Below, one piece after another: positions 3,971-44,158 of a DNA stretch of 54,423 bases. Position 1 is the stretch's first letter. Each line of letters starts with the position of its first letter. A model generated the notes under the pieces. The model saw only the letters and a list, made by a program, of their open reading frames with translations, searched no databases and was not told the DNA's origin. The DNA comes from Acetobacteraceae bacterium (GTDB lineage Bacteria > Pseudomonadota > Alphaproteobacteria > Acetobacterales > Acetobacteraceae). The translations under genes and the position numbers were made by a program. Location: positions 1-54,423 of the forward strand of contig JAIYDS010000248.1 in assembly GCA_027487385.1 (NCBI GenBank). The letters run 5' to 3'.

Positions 3971-4228
3971 ATGCGCCGCATCGCCATCGCCACCGCCCTG
4001 ATCATCGCCGGTTTCGCGGGTGCCGCTTCCGCGCAGGGCATCTCCTCCAACGGCGTGATGTACGGCCAGTCGTGGAACCTGCCGCAGAACTTCTCCGCGC
4101 TGGAGCGCATGCAGACCGCCCAGGGCAGCGGCACCGCGGCCGAGCGCGCCGCCCGTGCCGCCCGTCAGGCGCAGTTCAACCGCAACTACCCCGGCACGCC
4201 GATCCGCCGCAGCAGCGCCGCGCGCTGA
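3971..4228 (+). CDS. Small secreted protein of unknown function
   Basis: An 85-residue protein with a clear signal peptide (MRRIAIATALIIAGFAGAAS, cleaved near SAQ-G). The short mature part is rich in Q, N, A and R and has no cysteine or recognisable domain. A GAGAGAAGGA purine tract precedes the ATG. The leader holds a GC-rich hairpin at about 3927-3951 (GGCGGGGG pairing with CCCCCGCC). It is convergent with the patatin region and the two share the bidirectional terminator hairpin at 4251-4276. Confidence 0.7.
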   Translation: MRRIAIATALIIAGFAGAASAQGISSNGVMYGQSWNLPQNFSALERMQTAQGSGTAAERAARAARQAQFNRNYPGTPIRRSSAAR

Positions 4229-4243
4229 GCCACCAGCCGTTCA

Positions 4244-4277
4244 GAAAAAAAGCCCGGCGGATCGCTCCGCCGGGCTT
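4244..4277 (-). terminator. Rho-independent terminator
   Basis: An 11-base-pair stem (AGCCCGGCGGA at 4251-4261 with TCCGCCGGGCT at 4266-4276, loop TCGC) is followed on the minus strand by seven Ts (the A-run 4245-4251). This is the strongest intrinsic terminator in the window. It ends minus-strand transcription from the patatin/tiny-ORF side and may work weakly for the convergent plus-strand gene. Confidence 0.88.
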
Positions 4278-4324
4278 CCCTTGGGCATTGCCGTGGCGTC
4301 GCCGCCCGCGGCCGGGGCCCCCGA

Positions 4325-4390
4325 TCAGCGGATGAAGGGGGCGGTCATCCAGGCCATGGAAACGGCGTCGTCCGAACTGCAATGAGACAC
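4325..4390 (-). CDS. Tiny 21-residue ORF with an extended Shine-Dalgarno
   Basis: GTG-initiated ORF of 21 codons, starting VSHCSSDDAVS and ending MTAPFIR, then TGA. It is preceded by AAAGGAGGTGATCC, complementary to essentially the whole anti-Shine-Dalgarno tail of 16S rRNA, with 7 bases between AGGAGG and GTG. It ends 48 bases before a strong intrinsic terminator and begins 82 bases after the patatin stop codon. Such a ribosome-binding site is very unlikely by chance, so translation is likely. The function is unknown: it could be a small protein, a regulatory leader or a ribosome-titrating element. It is too short for homology to be judged here. Confidence 0.6.
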   Translation of the reverse strand: MSHCSSDDAVSMAWMTAPFIR

Positions 4391-4423
4391 TGGATCACCT
4401 CCTTTCGGTTGTTGAGGAGGTGA
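4391..4423 (-). promoter_or_regulatory. Hairpin that can mask the Shine-Dalgarno of the tiny ORF
   Basis: On the minus strand TCACCTCCT (4423-4415) is perfectly complementary to AGGAGGTGA (4403-4395), with an 11-base loop. The 9-bp stem would bury the core of the tiny ORF's Shine-Dalgarno. The upstream arm is itself an anti-Shine-Dalgarno sequence. A translation switch is inferred from this geometry. Confidence 0.55.
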
Positions 4424-4471
4424 GCCTGCCTGGGTGCCCGGGGCACCGCAAGGAAAATCGGCCCGCGCCGC

Positions 4472-5695
4472 TCAGGCGGGCGGCGCCTTCGCCCAGACAT
4501 CGCCCCGGCGCATGCGCTCCCGCCCATATTCGAAGAGCGGGCGCATATAGGCCTGATCGAAGGGCAGCGTGTAGGGAATGGTGAAGTCGTTCTGGATATA
4601 GGCCAGGTTGTAATCCATCAGGTCACGCTGCGCCGCGAAATACATTCGCACGATGTCATTATAGCCCAGCGCTGAGATCATCGAACTGATGGCCCGCCCG
4701 GCAATGCCGATGGTCCGGCGATTGACCTGCGCCCCGGTCGGTTCCAGCCGGGCATTGCGAATGATCCAGGTCCGTGCCGAAGCGACCGGCAGGCGCTGCG
4801 CCATGCGCTGGCGCCGGAATTCTCCGACGGTCTCCGGGTAAAGGAAGGCCTGGGCAAAGACGCCCCCATCCACATGCAGCTCATGATGCGGCACGCCATT
4901 CACGCTGACATCGAAGAGCACGGGGGAGAAGGCGCCCGGGATCGCGGCGGAGGCCAGCATGATGCGCCGCACCGTGTCGAGCGCCTGCGGATGCCCGCTC
5001 CTGGCGATGGCGCCGATATTCCAGACGACCGGGCGCTCCGCATCCAGATTGGTGGTGCCGATCAGCAACAGTCTTCCGGCATCATGCTCCCTGCCGATGG
5101 CGGCCAGCATCCGCTCATCCATGTGGCGGGAGATGGTGCGGAAGAGCGGCGAGTTGTCCGCCATGCCGTCATTGAGGATCGCGGCGCTATAGCCGCGCTG
5201 GATCAGGATGTCGGCCAGGGTGATCTCGGTATAGACGGCCCGGAGGGATGCATCCCAATCGCTGCCCAGGAAGGCGAAGGGCGCGGCCAGGGCGCCGGTG
5301 CTGACACCCGTCACGAGGAAGAATTCGGGCCGGTCGCCGCGTTCGGTCCAACCGACGAGCAGCCCGGCGCCGAAGGCGCCGTCTTCGCCGCCGCCGGAGA
5401 TCGCCAGCAGGTCGAGATTGGGAATGGCCCGCTCCGGATCCAGCCCGCGGGTTGCGGCCTTGCGCCGCACAGCGGCGAGGAATTCCTCCTGCAGGCCCTG
5501 CTGCCCGGAGCGCTCATGCACGAAGAAGCGCTCATTGGGGATGCCGAGGACCGTCACGCTCTGCCGGTGGTCGGCCGGCACGGCGGGCAGGCGGGTCGGC
5601 AGCGCGCAACCTGCGAGGAGGGCTGGCGCGGGCAGGGCCAGAAGGGCGCGGCGGGAGAGAGGCGGGACCGGGACCGGGGCGGAGGGATCGAACAA
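4472..5695 (-). CDS. Patatin-like phospholipase lipoprotein
   Basis: Predicted membrane-anchored acyl hydrolase. The patatin signature is complete: glycine-rich oxyanion motif SGGGEDGAFGAG, nucleophile elbow GVSTGA, and catalytic aspartate in HVDGGVF. The N-terminus has arginines, a hydrophobic run and a lipobox LLAGC. No ATG fits: in-frame codons further upstream run into the acyl-CoA synthetase gene. I chose TTG at 5695, preceded by AAGG at good spacing; TTG at 5725 is the alternative. It follows the acyl-CoA synthetase by under 50 bases on the same strand, so fatty acids it releases could be activated by the upstream gene product. Function sure at family level, start uncertain. Confidence 0.82.
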   Translation of the reverse strand: MFDPSAPVPVPPLSRRALLALPAPALLAGCALPTRLPAVPADHRQSVTVLGIPNERFFVHERSGQQGLQEEFLAAVRRKAATRGLDPERAIPNLDLLAISGGGEDGAFGAGLLVGWTERGDRPEFFLVTGVSTGALAAPFAFLGSDWDASLRAVYTEITLADILIQRGYSAAILNDGMADNSPLFRTISRHMDERMLAAIGREHDAGRLLLIGTTNLDAERPVVWNIGAIARSGHPQALDTVRRIMLASAAIPGAFSPVLFDVSVNGVPHHELHVDGGVFAQAFLYPETVGEFRRQRMAQRLPVASARTWIIRNARLEPTGAQVNRRTIGIAGRAISSMISALGYNDIVRMYFAAQRDLMDYNLAYIQNDFTIPYTLPFDQAYMRPLFEYGRERMRRGDVWAKAPPA

Positions 5696-5742
5696 GAGCG
5701 GCCTTTTCCTCGTCGCGAGGGTCAATCTCCCGCCGCTGCATC

Positions 5743-7362
5743 CTATCCCCGAATGCTGCCCCGCAGCACATGTTTTTGGATCTTGCCCGTGCTGGTCTTG
5801 GGCAGTTCCGTAAAGACCACCCGCTTGGGCGCCTTGAACCCGGCCATCAGCGCGCGGCAATGCGCGATGATCTCGGCCTCTGTCGCGCTCATCCCGGGAC
5901 GGAGTTCCACGAAGGCGCAGGGCACCTCGCCCCATTTCTCATCCGGCTGCGCCACCACGGCGGCGAGCGCCACGGCCGGGTGCTTGTAGAGCGCGTCCTC
6001 CACCTCGATGGAGGAGATGTTTTCCCCGCCCGAGATGATGATGTCCTTCGAGCGGTCACGCAGCTGGATGTAGCCATCCGGGTATTTCACCGCGAGGTCG
6101 CCCGAGTGGAACCAGCCGCCGGCGAAGGCGGCGTCGGTGGCGGCCTGGTCCTTGAAATAGCCCTTCATCACGACGTTGCCGCGGAACATCACCTCGCCCA
6201 TCGCGACGCCATCGGCCGCGACGGGCTGCATCGTCGTGGGGTCCATCACGTCGAGCCCCTCCAGCGGCACATAGCGCACGCCCTGGCGCGCCATGAGCTT
6301 CGCCTGCTCGGCCGCCGGGGCGCGGTCCCATTCCGCATGCCACTCATTGGTGACGGCGGGGCCATAGACCTCGGTCAGGCCATAGACATGCAGCACGGCG
6401 AAGCCCGCGGCCCGCATCGCGGCCAGAACGGCCTCCGGCGGCGGCGCGCCGGCGACGACGAAGGTGACGGAGCCCGGCAAGGCGCGCTTCTCGGCTTCGG
6501 GGGTCGCGAGCAGCGTGCCCATGACGATGGGCGCGCCGCACATATGCGTCACGCCATGCTCCGCGATGAGCGACCACATGGCGGGGCCGCGCACCGCGCG
6601 CAGGCAGACATGCGTGCCGGCCATCGCCGTGATGGTCCAGGGGAAGCACCAGCCATTGCAATGGAACATGGGCAGCGTCCAGAGATAGACGGGATGCCGC
6701 CCCATCCCGGCCGAGAGCACATTGCCGATGGCGAGAAGCTGCGCGCCGCGATGGTGATAGACGACGCCCTTCGGCTTGCCCGTGGTGCCGGAGGTGTAGT
6801 TCAGGGCGATCGCGTCCCATTCGTCACGCGGCAGCGGCCATGCGAATTCCTCGCTGCCTTCGCTCAGCAGGCTCTCGTAGTCCTGGCCACCGAGGGTTTC
6901 GTCCGAGCGCGCCTCACTGTCATTCACCTCGATGATCGTGGGCTTGTTCGTGCATTGCACCAGCGCGGCGCGCAGCACGGGGATGAATTCACGGTCCACG
7001 ATGACGATCCGCGCTTCACCATGGTCGAGGATATAGGCGATGGTCGCGGCATCGAGACGTGTGTTGATGGTGTTCAGCACGCAGCCGGCCATGGGCACGC
7101 CGTAATGGCATTCCAGCATGGCGGGCGTATTGGGCAGCAGCGCCGCCACCGTATCGCCGCGCCCCAGGCCGCGCTGGTGCAGCGCATGCGCCAGCTTCAC
7201 GCAGCGCATGCGGAGTTCGGCATAGGATCGGCGCAGCGCGCCATGGATCACCGCCACATGGCCGGGAAACACCTCCGCCGTGCGTTCGAGGAAGAGCAGC
7301 GGCGTCAGCGGCTGGTGGTTGGCGGCGACGCGGGGAAGGGCATCGTAATCGGAAGCGGCCAT
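5743..7362 (-). CDS. Acyl-CoA synthetase (AMP-dependent, ANL family)
   Basis: Acyl-adenylate-forming ligase that activates a carboxylic acid to its CoA thioester using ATP. The P-loop motif YTSGTTGKPKGV is near residue 185, then GAPPP and YGLTEVYGP; the C-terminal domain has DRSKDIIISGGENIS and the catalytic lysine in KTSTGKIQKH. At 539 residues it is of normal length and resembles the medium-chain/DmdB-like acyl-CoA synthetases. It lies 4 bases downstream of the enoyl-CoA hydratase and is co-oriented with prpE, which points to a beta-oxidation-type acid-degradation operon. The chain length of the substrate is not determined. Confidence 0.92.
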   Translation of the reverse strand: MAASDYDALPRVAANHQPLTPLLFLERTAEVFPGHVAVIHGALRRSYAELRMRCVKLAHALHQRGLGRGDTVAALLPNTPAMLECHYGVPMAGCVLNTINTRLDAATIAYILDHGEARIVIVDREFIPVLRAALVQCTNKPTIIEVNDSEARSDETLGGQDYESLLSEGSEEFAWPLPRDEWDAIALNYTSGTTGKPKGVVYHHRGAQLLAIGNVLSAGMGRHPVYLWTLPMFHCNGWCFPWTITAMAGTHVCLRAVRGPAMWSLIAEHGVTHMCGAPIVMGTLLATPEAEKRALPGSVTFVVAGAPPPEAVLAAMRAAGFAVLHVYGLTEVYGPAVTNEWHAEWDRAPAAEQAKLMARQGVRYVPLEGLDVMDPTTMQPVAADGVAMGEVMFRGNVVMKGYFKDQAATDAAFAGGWFHSGDLAVKYPDGYIQLRDRSKDIIISGGENISSIEVEDALYKHPAVALAAVVAQPDEKWGEVPCAFVELRPGMSATEAEIIAHCRALMAGFKAPKRVVFTELPKTSTGKIQKHVLRGSIRG

Positions 7363-41097: not shown

Positions 41098-41180
41098 TGC
41101 GGGCGGCGGGACTCGAACCCGCACGGCCATGCGGCCGAGGGTTTTTAAGACCCTTCCGTCTACCATTCCGGCACGCCCGC
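41098..41180 (-). tRNA. tRNA-Leu (anticodon UAA)
   Basis: An 83-nt cloverleaf on the minus strand. Acceptor stem GCGGGCG/CGCCCGC with discriminator A, anticodon arm AGGGTCTTAAAAACCCT with UAA, a long class II variable arm CGGCCGCATGGCCG, and a T arm GCGGGTTCGAGTCCCGC. CCA is not encoded. It follows the small lipoprotein gene on the same strand. Class II form and anticodon both say leucine. Confidence 0.95.
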
Positions 41181-44040: not shown

Positions 44041-44140
44041 CGGCGGAAGGTCGGTGCGGACGGGCTCCTCGCCAACCCGGTCAGGTCCGGAAGGAAGCAG
44101 CCGTAACGGGTTCTTGCTCGGGTCGCCGCCGGCCTTCCAC
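44041..44140 (+). ncRNA. ffs: Bacterial small signal recognition particle RNA (4.5S)
   Basis: The universally conserved Ffh-binding hairpin GGTCAGGTCCGGAAGGAAGC followed by AGCC is present at 44079-44102. The 5' end GGAAGGTCGG (from 44045) pairs with the 3' end CCGGCCTTCC (to 44138), giving a single long hairpin of roughly 95-100 nt. The position just before dnaX is the usual one in alphaproteobacteria. End points are accurate to a few bases. Confidence 0.95.
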
Positions 44141-44158
44141 CTTCTCTCATTGGCTCGG

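Follow-up and report, generated by a model that had tools for sequence, protein, structure and literature searches.

What does a Shine-Dalgarno (SD) sequence complementary to nearly the whole 3' tail of 16S rRNA do in front of a reading frame of only 21 codons? This question is raised by a short minus-strand segment of an Acetobacteraceae contig (JAIYDS010000248.1, positions 1 to 54,423), the entire 54,423 nucleotides of which are referred to here as the window. A previous sequence-only reading had described the segment as a compact translation device that could be a regulated micropeptide, a leader or a ribosome-binding RNA; the parts of a compact stand-alone device were all recovered, including the anti-16S SD, the short open reading frame (ORF) opened by a GTG and the terminator with its 11-bp stem and seven T residues (Table 1). 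The unit lies downstream of the patatin gene on the same minus strand and is convergent with the ORF beyond its terminator. There is strong support for approximately 4415-4244 (-) being a stand-alone small RNA gene and a divergent homolog of the CC2171 family, and of the three functions proposed previously, the ribosome-binding RNA fits best. The interpretation favored here, at a probability of roughly 0.45, is that of a translated CC2171-type small RNA working through ribosome engagement and not mainly through its peptide.

Table 1. Positions in the window of the small RNA locus, its parts and the other features discussed in the text.
Feature	Position	Strand	Basis or remark
AMP-binding ligase gene (PF00501)	5743-7362		
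Patatin gene (PF01734)	4472-5935	-	
Putative -35 box TTGCGG	4446-4451	-	TTGCGC-type box recurrent upstream of aligned relatives' loci
Putative -10 box CAGGCT	4423-4428	-	17 nt after -35; ends 17 nt before AAAGG
Upstream arm TCACCTCCT	4415-4423	-	Judged promoter/discriminator, outside the RNA; exact in 1/46 loci
RNA, full-length RF01867 (CC2171) homolog	4250-4414	-	63.6 bits, E 4.2e-13, model 1-159
Leader CAACAACCG	4414-4406	-	
17-nt SD segment GAAAGGAGGTGATCCAG	4406-4390	-	Complement of 16S 3' tail; last base is first of start codon
SD as previously described, AAAGGAGGTGATCC	4405-4392	-	
Partner of upstream arm, AGGAGGTGA	4403-4395	-	Arm sits 11 nt before it
21-codon ORF, GTG to TGA (VSHCSSDDAVSMAWMTAPFIR)	4390-4325	-	Start and stop kept in relatives; TGA at 4327-4325
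P1 5' strand CATTGC	4379-4384	-	Fold; covariation on relatives
Internal anti-SD CCTGGATGACC, partial 16S-tail mimic	4343-4353	-	Self-complementarity of SD, GGAT counts
P1 3' strand GCAATG	4286-4291	-	Fold; covariation on relatives
Terminator: 11-bp stem CGGCGGAGCGATCCGCCGG (4276-4251) and seven T (4250-4244)	4244-4276	-	Clear on folding
Convergent ORF	3971-4228	+	No match in Pfam search
tRNA-Leu(TAA)	41098-41180	-	Rfam match at gathering level
Bacterial small SRP RNA	44045-44141	+	Rfam match at gathering level

The arrangement had been thought to lack any described counterpart, which does not hold: the element is homologous to the Rfam family RF01867 (CC2171), filed as an sRNA. The match is significant and spans the full length of the model, the same parts occur in the same order (core GAAAGGAGGUGAUCCAGUGUCUCAU, P1, terminator), and the predicted transcription start lies near CAACAA, at which the Rfam model begins. 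Because the score falls below the 75-bit gathering cut-off, the RNA is called a homolog and not a filed member, an assignment for which the comparison with the model gives strong support; at gathering level, Rfam recognizes nothing in the window except a tRNA and the small SRP RNA. Among 16 relatives' loci that were scanned, 7 pass the cut-off. The observation is real and not an isolated curiosity, yet it is not unknown, being a divergent homolog of a catalogued sRNA family. According to excerpts of the relevant papers, CC2171 is among the families that gained covarying pairs (one) in Rfam 15 (PMC11701678), and it is the label of MH_s33 in Mesorhizobium huakuii (PMC5596092), a 215-nt interval taken here, from a table excerpt that lacks its headers, as an RNA-seq product. 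In a literature search lying mostly outside subscription journals, no paper among the matches listed describes a translated ORF or 16S complementarity for CC2171/RF01867, nor a spread to sphingomonads, Rhodobacteraceae and Bradyrhizobium; the published description, among those matches, misses the most telling property of the family.

In Rfam, this RNA figures as a single little-known sRNA of Caulobacter, and it is found here in a sizeable minority of the sampled genomes of the class, conserved in many relatives at the level of both ORF and surrounding features, where the sequence-only reading had allowed that it might not be. The RF01867 model matches 59 of 120 genomes in the family sample at E <= 0.001 (8 pass the cut-off) and 26 of 142 in the class sample (5 pass); in each of the two samples, no control genome out of 14 matches except that of Caulobacter vibrioides. 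When eight loci of other clades were scanned permissively, seven matched weakly (30.6-49.9 bits, E 2e-7 to 0.011), and the Azospirillum locus L119 gave no match to CC2171. With a strict sequence pattern, matches were obtained in 97 of 299 genomes of the order sample (all listed as the same genus or family), 55 of 385 of the class sample (a single match in 54 of those 55) and 32 of 299 of the phylum sample, all within the class and none among the 213 genomes outside it; these samples and that of the Rfam model overlap and their sequences are related, so the counts cannot be treated as independent. Among the matches listed, none is to the reversed control pattern. Relatives are also likely in some Gammaproteobacteria, to which L232-L236, L130/L229 and L174/L230, loci sharing the SD core, are assigned by record name alone. 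The SAR92 locus L130 led to a genome in whose order 7 of the 145 genomes gave a match: five (L232-L236) resemble the relatives, with ATG-TCT-AGT and 22-25 codons, four of these having a clear terminator and P1 being mostly weak (-5.9 to -11.9 kcal/mol), and the remaining two are L130's own short variant and L231, a coding sequence matching by chance. Phage cargo was considered and rejected, a search of 50,697 phage records giving no match at E <= 0.01, and 9 of 72,556 plasmid records match, 5 of them from Azospirillum and none covering 80% of the query. The "hypothetical protein" annotated under hit H2 lies on the opposite strand.

For the comparisons below, 157 sequences were kept after dropping L004, L035, L068 and L100 (duplicates), identical fragments and fragments under 250 nt, and they were grouped by peptide pattern, not by taxonomy: SPH (sphingomonad-type; MSHG and under 30 codons), RHO (Rhodobacteraceae-type; VSR..LE start), BRA (Bradyrhizobium-type; containing the string KRCHLAGIAR), VSH and OTH. 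A terminator hairpin was found in 155 of the 157, a count made with no shuffled control and including some poor picks. A generic terminator scan of the window does not list the terminator of Table 1 and lists a hairpin at 4477-4461 instead.

The gene neighborhood bears on whether the unit acts on an adjoining gene. As had been noted from the sequence, it is unrelated to its patatin neighbor: its upstream place is taken by an acyl-CoA-synthetase-like gene in the same-genus loci L005-L009, whose upstream ORFs cluster and match, by eye, the AMP-binding ligase of the window. The patatin gene of the window sits between this ligase and the RNA gene, which suggests a gain in the window or a loss in L005-L009. 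More generally, neighbors cluster within clades and not across them, including the upstream ORFs of 12 of 14 RHO loci (Vut_1 in L110), the downstream ORFs of 5 RHO loci (an RF-1 domain, PF00472, in L110) and the downstream ORFs of 12 SPH loci (Aminotran_4 in L131). The downstream gene lies on the same or the opposite strand (+/-) in 23/12 SPH, 9/4 RHO, 1/7 BRA, 31/31 VSH and 15/17 OTH loci, by crude gene calls that include some antisense ORFs and leave a few loci (2 in VSH) without a call; no conserved same-strand downstream gene was found across clades. A transcription attenuator or leader would account for a short ORF followed by a terminator and for the same-strand gene downstream of 23 of 37 SPH and 9 of 14 RHO loci. 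However, a convergent gene follows the RNA both in the window and in 7 of 8 BRA loci, the two orientations are equally frequent in VSH, and the families found downstream change from clade to clade according to the same crude calls. The leader proposed previously is therefore disfavored for want of a conserved same-strand downstream gene, and an attenuator is very improbable.

The sequence-only reading had also placed an occluding hairpin over the SD, formed with a perfectly complementary arm upstream. The arm and its partner are spaced as described, and a 9-bp hairpin forms when the arm is included in the fold. However, the arm lies within the putative promoter, where it overlaps the -10 box and discriminator. 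In an alignment of 46 loci on AAAGG (including two repeats, L189 = L012 and L212 = L013), the window alone has an exact arm; that of L005 carries 1 mismatch and those of the remaining 44 carry 2-4. As a conserved feature, the hairpin was rejected. Because a generic sigma-70 scan finds no promoter at the RNA locus, the promoter assignment rests on conservation: TTGCGC-type -35 and CANNNT -10 boxes recur among the aligned loci, and in 44 of the 46 the distance from the end of the best-scoring -10 box to AAAGG is 16-22 nt. This -10 position would place the transcription start near 4414-4417, at the conserved CAACAA, and the arm in the discriminator. The 9-bp hairpin is thus probably absent from the RNA, as the arm would lie outside the transcript or nearly outside it.

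The complementarity to 16S rRNA, by contrast with that hairpin, extends further than had been stated. All 17 nt of the segment are perfectly complementary to CTGGATCACCTCCTTTC, read at the 16S 3' end in L213, a genome of the same genus; the count of 17 includes the last C of the genomic 16S end, which is perhaps absent from the mature 16S. The 16S end was located in 3 of 13 genomes searched, and not in the assembly to which the window itself belongs. Allowing up to 2 mismatches, 0.22 matches would be expected by chance in the window, and the single one found is exact. Neither a 16S fragment nor an antisense 16S was retained as a candidate, since the complementarity ends after CCAG, where the start codon follows, and Rfam gives no rRNA match in the window. 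The SD core recurs across the class, although most loci were found by patterns requiring this core, so that its invariance there is by construction; the Rfam-found set (n = 28) is less biased, even if the model contains the core, and in 26 of its 28 matches the SD core has no more than 2 mismatches. The SD is missing from its two weakest matches, L260 and L264, which are probably false.

Downstream of this segment, valid start codons are retained even where the pattern leaves the start free. GTG occupies this position in 97 of 97 matches of the order sample, GTG or ATG in 33 of 33 of the phylum sample, and a valid start in 55 of 56 of the class sample (25 GTG, 26 ATG, 4 TTG and 1 GCA); among the 26 Rfam-found matches with the SD core, ATG, GTG or TTG stands at the expected place in 25, and L259 has TTG one base earlier. 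The stop is fixed in position as well: it falls at codon 19 in 35 of 37 SPH (TGA 17, TAA 16, TAG 2) and 14 of 14 RHO sequences (TAG 6, TGA 4, TAA 4) and at codon 15 in 8 of 8 BRA sequences (TAG 4, TGA 3, TAA 1), or in 57 of 59 when pooled, while switching among the three stop codons. The stop position was not imposed in the grouping. TGG was observed 0 times at the stop position versus 5.1 expected (P about 0.005, with relatedness ignored). The ORF length varies in VSH (18-33 codons) and OTH (20-59 codons). Translation of the ORF is supported by these comparisons.

The same data bear on whether the unit is an ordinary trans-acting sRNA, with the SD-like segment as a seed for RNAs bearing an anti-SD and the ORF incidental. 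The Rfam type is sRNA, the unit stands alone with its own terminator, and most Caulobacter ncRNA regions were untranslated in the excerpt of Schrader 2014 (PMC4117421). That excerpt cuts both ways for CC2171: it lowers the prior for translation because just two ncRNAs were found to be translated, and those two had been predicted earlier as noncoding. A plain sRNA would not be expected to have a start codon that varies among valid starts alone in 55 of 56 cases, nor a stop position kept across three stop types, and this interpretation is improbable. An article on peptide-coding sRNAs (PMC5521070) contains neither Caulobacter nor Rfam in its main text.

If the ORF is translated, its product could be the purpose of the unit, as in a small mRNA whose strong SD allows a micropeptide to be made in quantity. 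The conserved start and stop agree with this, as does Ser at codon 2, which five Rfam-found loci retain through the synonymous codons TCC, TCG or TCA and two have replaced. Additionally, versions of 56-59 codons occur at the same SD core in L038, L119, L159 and L175, three of which are Azospirillum; these have a hydrophobic, signal-like start and are possibly true small proteins. However, no third-position excess was found in SPH (entropy sums 13.15/14.24/9.73; codons 6-18, 37 sequences) or in RHO (9.95/10.70/9.97; codons 4-18, 14 sequences), the C-terminal codons vary freely, and the peptides differ among clades, the conservation of the BRA peptide being by construction. The micropeptide proposed previously is thus weakened, with no coding-type substitution in the two clades tested, and as the main function it is unlikely. 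A fixed stop position without third-position excess suggests selection for the length of the frame and for its two ends, with most of the peptide, where tested, left free to change.

Selection also extends to the structure of the RNA. P1, the helix that closes codons 3-8 with the segment preceding the terminator, is present in the window as CATTGC/GCAATG and in the RF01867 consensus as CAUUGUC/GACAAUG. Folded from 4416, the RNA of the window has P1 closed and the SD pairing weakly with the leader (z -2.81; 1 of 200 shuffles folds as well), leaving the SD core 0.48 unpaired in the ensemble. Across 155 sequences, the native P1 duplex averages -14.6 versus -9.7 kcal/mol with swapped partners, and the difference holds within VSH (64 sequences; -15.6 versus -12.4, sd 0.36) and OTH (32; -12.6 versus -8.5, sd 0.49); inside SPH, RHO and BRA, the three most uniform clades, the swap made no clear difference. 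In alignment A1, comprising 57 of 65 VSH sequences (L008, L009, L059, L126, L134, L152, L156 and L170 were dropped by hand), 87.8% of P1 cells are paired and 23 cells are changed on both sides. None of 500 shuffles reaches the paired percentage, the number of doubly changed cells or the covariation score; two other count measures, reached by 18 and 38 of 500 shuffles, show a modest excess. Slid versions of P1 drop to 22-66% paired. On this comparative evidence, P1 is under selection, with compensatory changes.

A second pairing involves the SD itself. Self-complementarity of the SD exceeds that of shuffled sequences in 58 of 64 VSH, 14 of 14 RHO, 8 of 8 BRA, 30 of 32 OTH and 26 of 37 SPH sequences. 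Within the ORF region, 91 of 183 sequences contain GGAT, part of the 16S-tail mimic, as against a mean of 36.9 and a maximum of 52 after shuffling; 30 of the 183 have CTGGATC. The base before GGAT tracks the base before the start codon, with A accompanying T in 45 of 71 cases, G accompanying C in 7 of 14 and T in none, and T accompanying A in 2 of 4. The internal anti-SD pairing and P1 cross, and the two would compete or form a pseudoknot.

Accessibility differs by clade, and the SD is neither always sequestered nor always open; both simple descriptions were rejected. Over 137 of the 157 sequences (those with a terminator ending within 235 nt), the SD core is unpaired at 0.49 in VSH versus 0.35 when shuffled and at 0.03 in RHO versus 0.34, with values near shuffled in SPH, BRA and OTH; the start codon is unpaired at 0.65 in VSH versus 0.33 shuffled, at 0.02 in RHO and at 0.01 in BRA. 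These values also bear on a decoy or hibernation-type RNA, in which the long duplex would tie up free 30S subunits or the pre-16S 3' end and the ORF would merely let ribosomes clear the RNA. Complementarity to the whole 16S tail, at -35.2 kcal/mol for the SD:16S duplex of the VSH form by duplex folding, is what such an RNA would have. However, a decoy does not need selection on the stop position and P1, the SD is buried in the Rhodobacteraceae type, and high RNA abundance would be required; this explanation is quite unlikely, ranking below the micropeptide and above the plain sRNA.

Because selection appears to act on the start, the stop position and P1 but not on most of the peptide, the loading and passage of a ribosome is most likely what the RNA uses, and ribosome engagement is favored over, in descending order, the micropeptide, the decoy, the plain sRNA and the attenuator. 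In a possible sequence of events, a 30S subunit would dock through the very long SD and the translating ribosome would open P1; when ribosomes are scarce, the internal anti-SD would compete with the 16S tail and close the site; and the open or closed state of P1 may set the stability of the RNA or the access of partners to its 3' strand. Translation in this organism, the competition among 16S tail, mimic and P1, and any downstream effect are what we infer from these patterns. The most specific form of the favored reading is doubtful, at odds clearly below those for ribosome engagement in general: a ribosome-gated RNA, spread through many Alphaproteobacteria, would sense free 30S by being translated and signal through RNA structure and not peptide, using a full 16S-tail complement, an internal anti-SD and a short "timer" ORF. 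Against such gating stand the uneven accessibility of the SD, open in VSH and buried in RHO, the missing swap signal for P1 inside the three most uniform clades, the modest excess in two of its five count measures, and the synonymous conservation of Ser-2 together with the 56-59-codon members, which fit a peptide role. If gating were true, the family would offer a genetically simple way into the question of how bacteria gauge their free ribosomes, and RNAs filed as noncoding may use translation without needing the product.

Partial resemblances to known systems were noted from excerpts of their descriptions. As a small alphaproteobacterial RNA with a 14-aa ORF, rnTrpL/peTrpL of Sinorhizobium meliloti is similar, whereas it is leaderless and tied to the trp attenuator, and the RNA of the window has a very long SD and no conserved downstream gene (PMC10117765). 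Pos19 of Rhodobacter sphaeroides, compared by description alone, is a 219-nt coding sRNA from another alphaproteobacterium, although it belongs to the RpoE oxidative-stress regulon (PMC5036791). In Staphylococcus aureus, longer-than-usual SD:16S pairing shapes initiation on extended-SD mRNAs, but these are described as ordinary mRNAs with a shorter extension and neither a closing helix nor a stand-alone RNA (PMC13009471).

Several minor observations accompany these results. Translation-related neighbors occur in some clades, namely the RF-1-domain gene in RHO (L110) and an annotated hflX upstream of the element in Skermanella mucosa (L218). In Pelagibacterium luteolum (L120:4849-5280), an FMN riboswitch (5129-5280) follows the element at a distance of approximately 80 nt. 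Genome G047 contains the core twice, on contig C1 at 805113 (+) and 2922048 (-). In the short variant (L130/L229 and L174/L230), CCAGTG, the region of the GTG, is paired with CACTGG next to a terminator hairpin. Finally, the terminator hairpin of the window recurs elsewhere in its own genome and in same-genus and same-family genomes (L002, L003, L016, L017, L019, L020, L022, L025, L026 and L028-L030), as if a single terminator sequence were reused.
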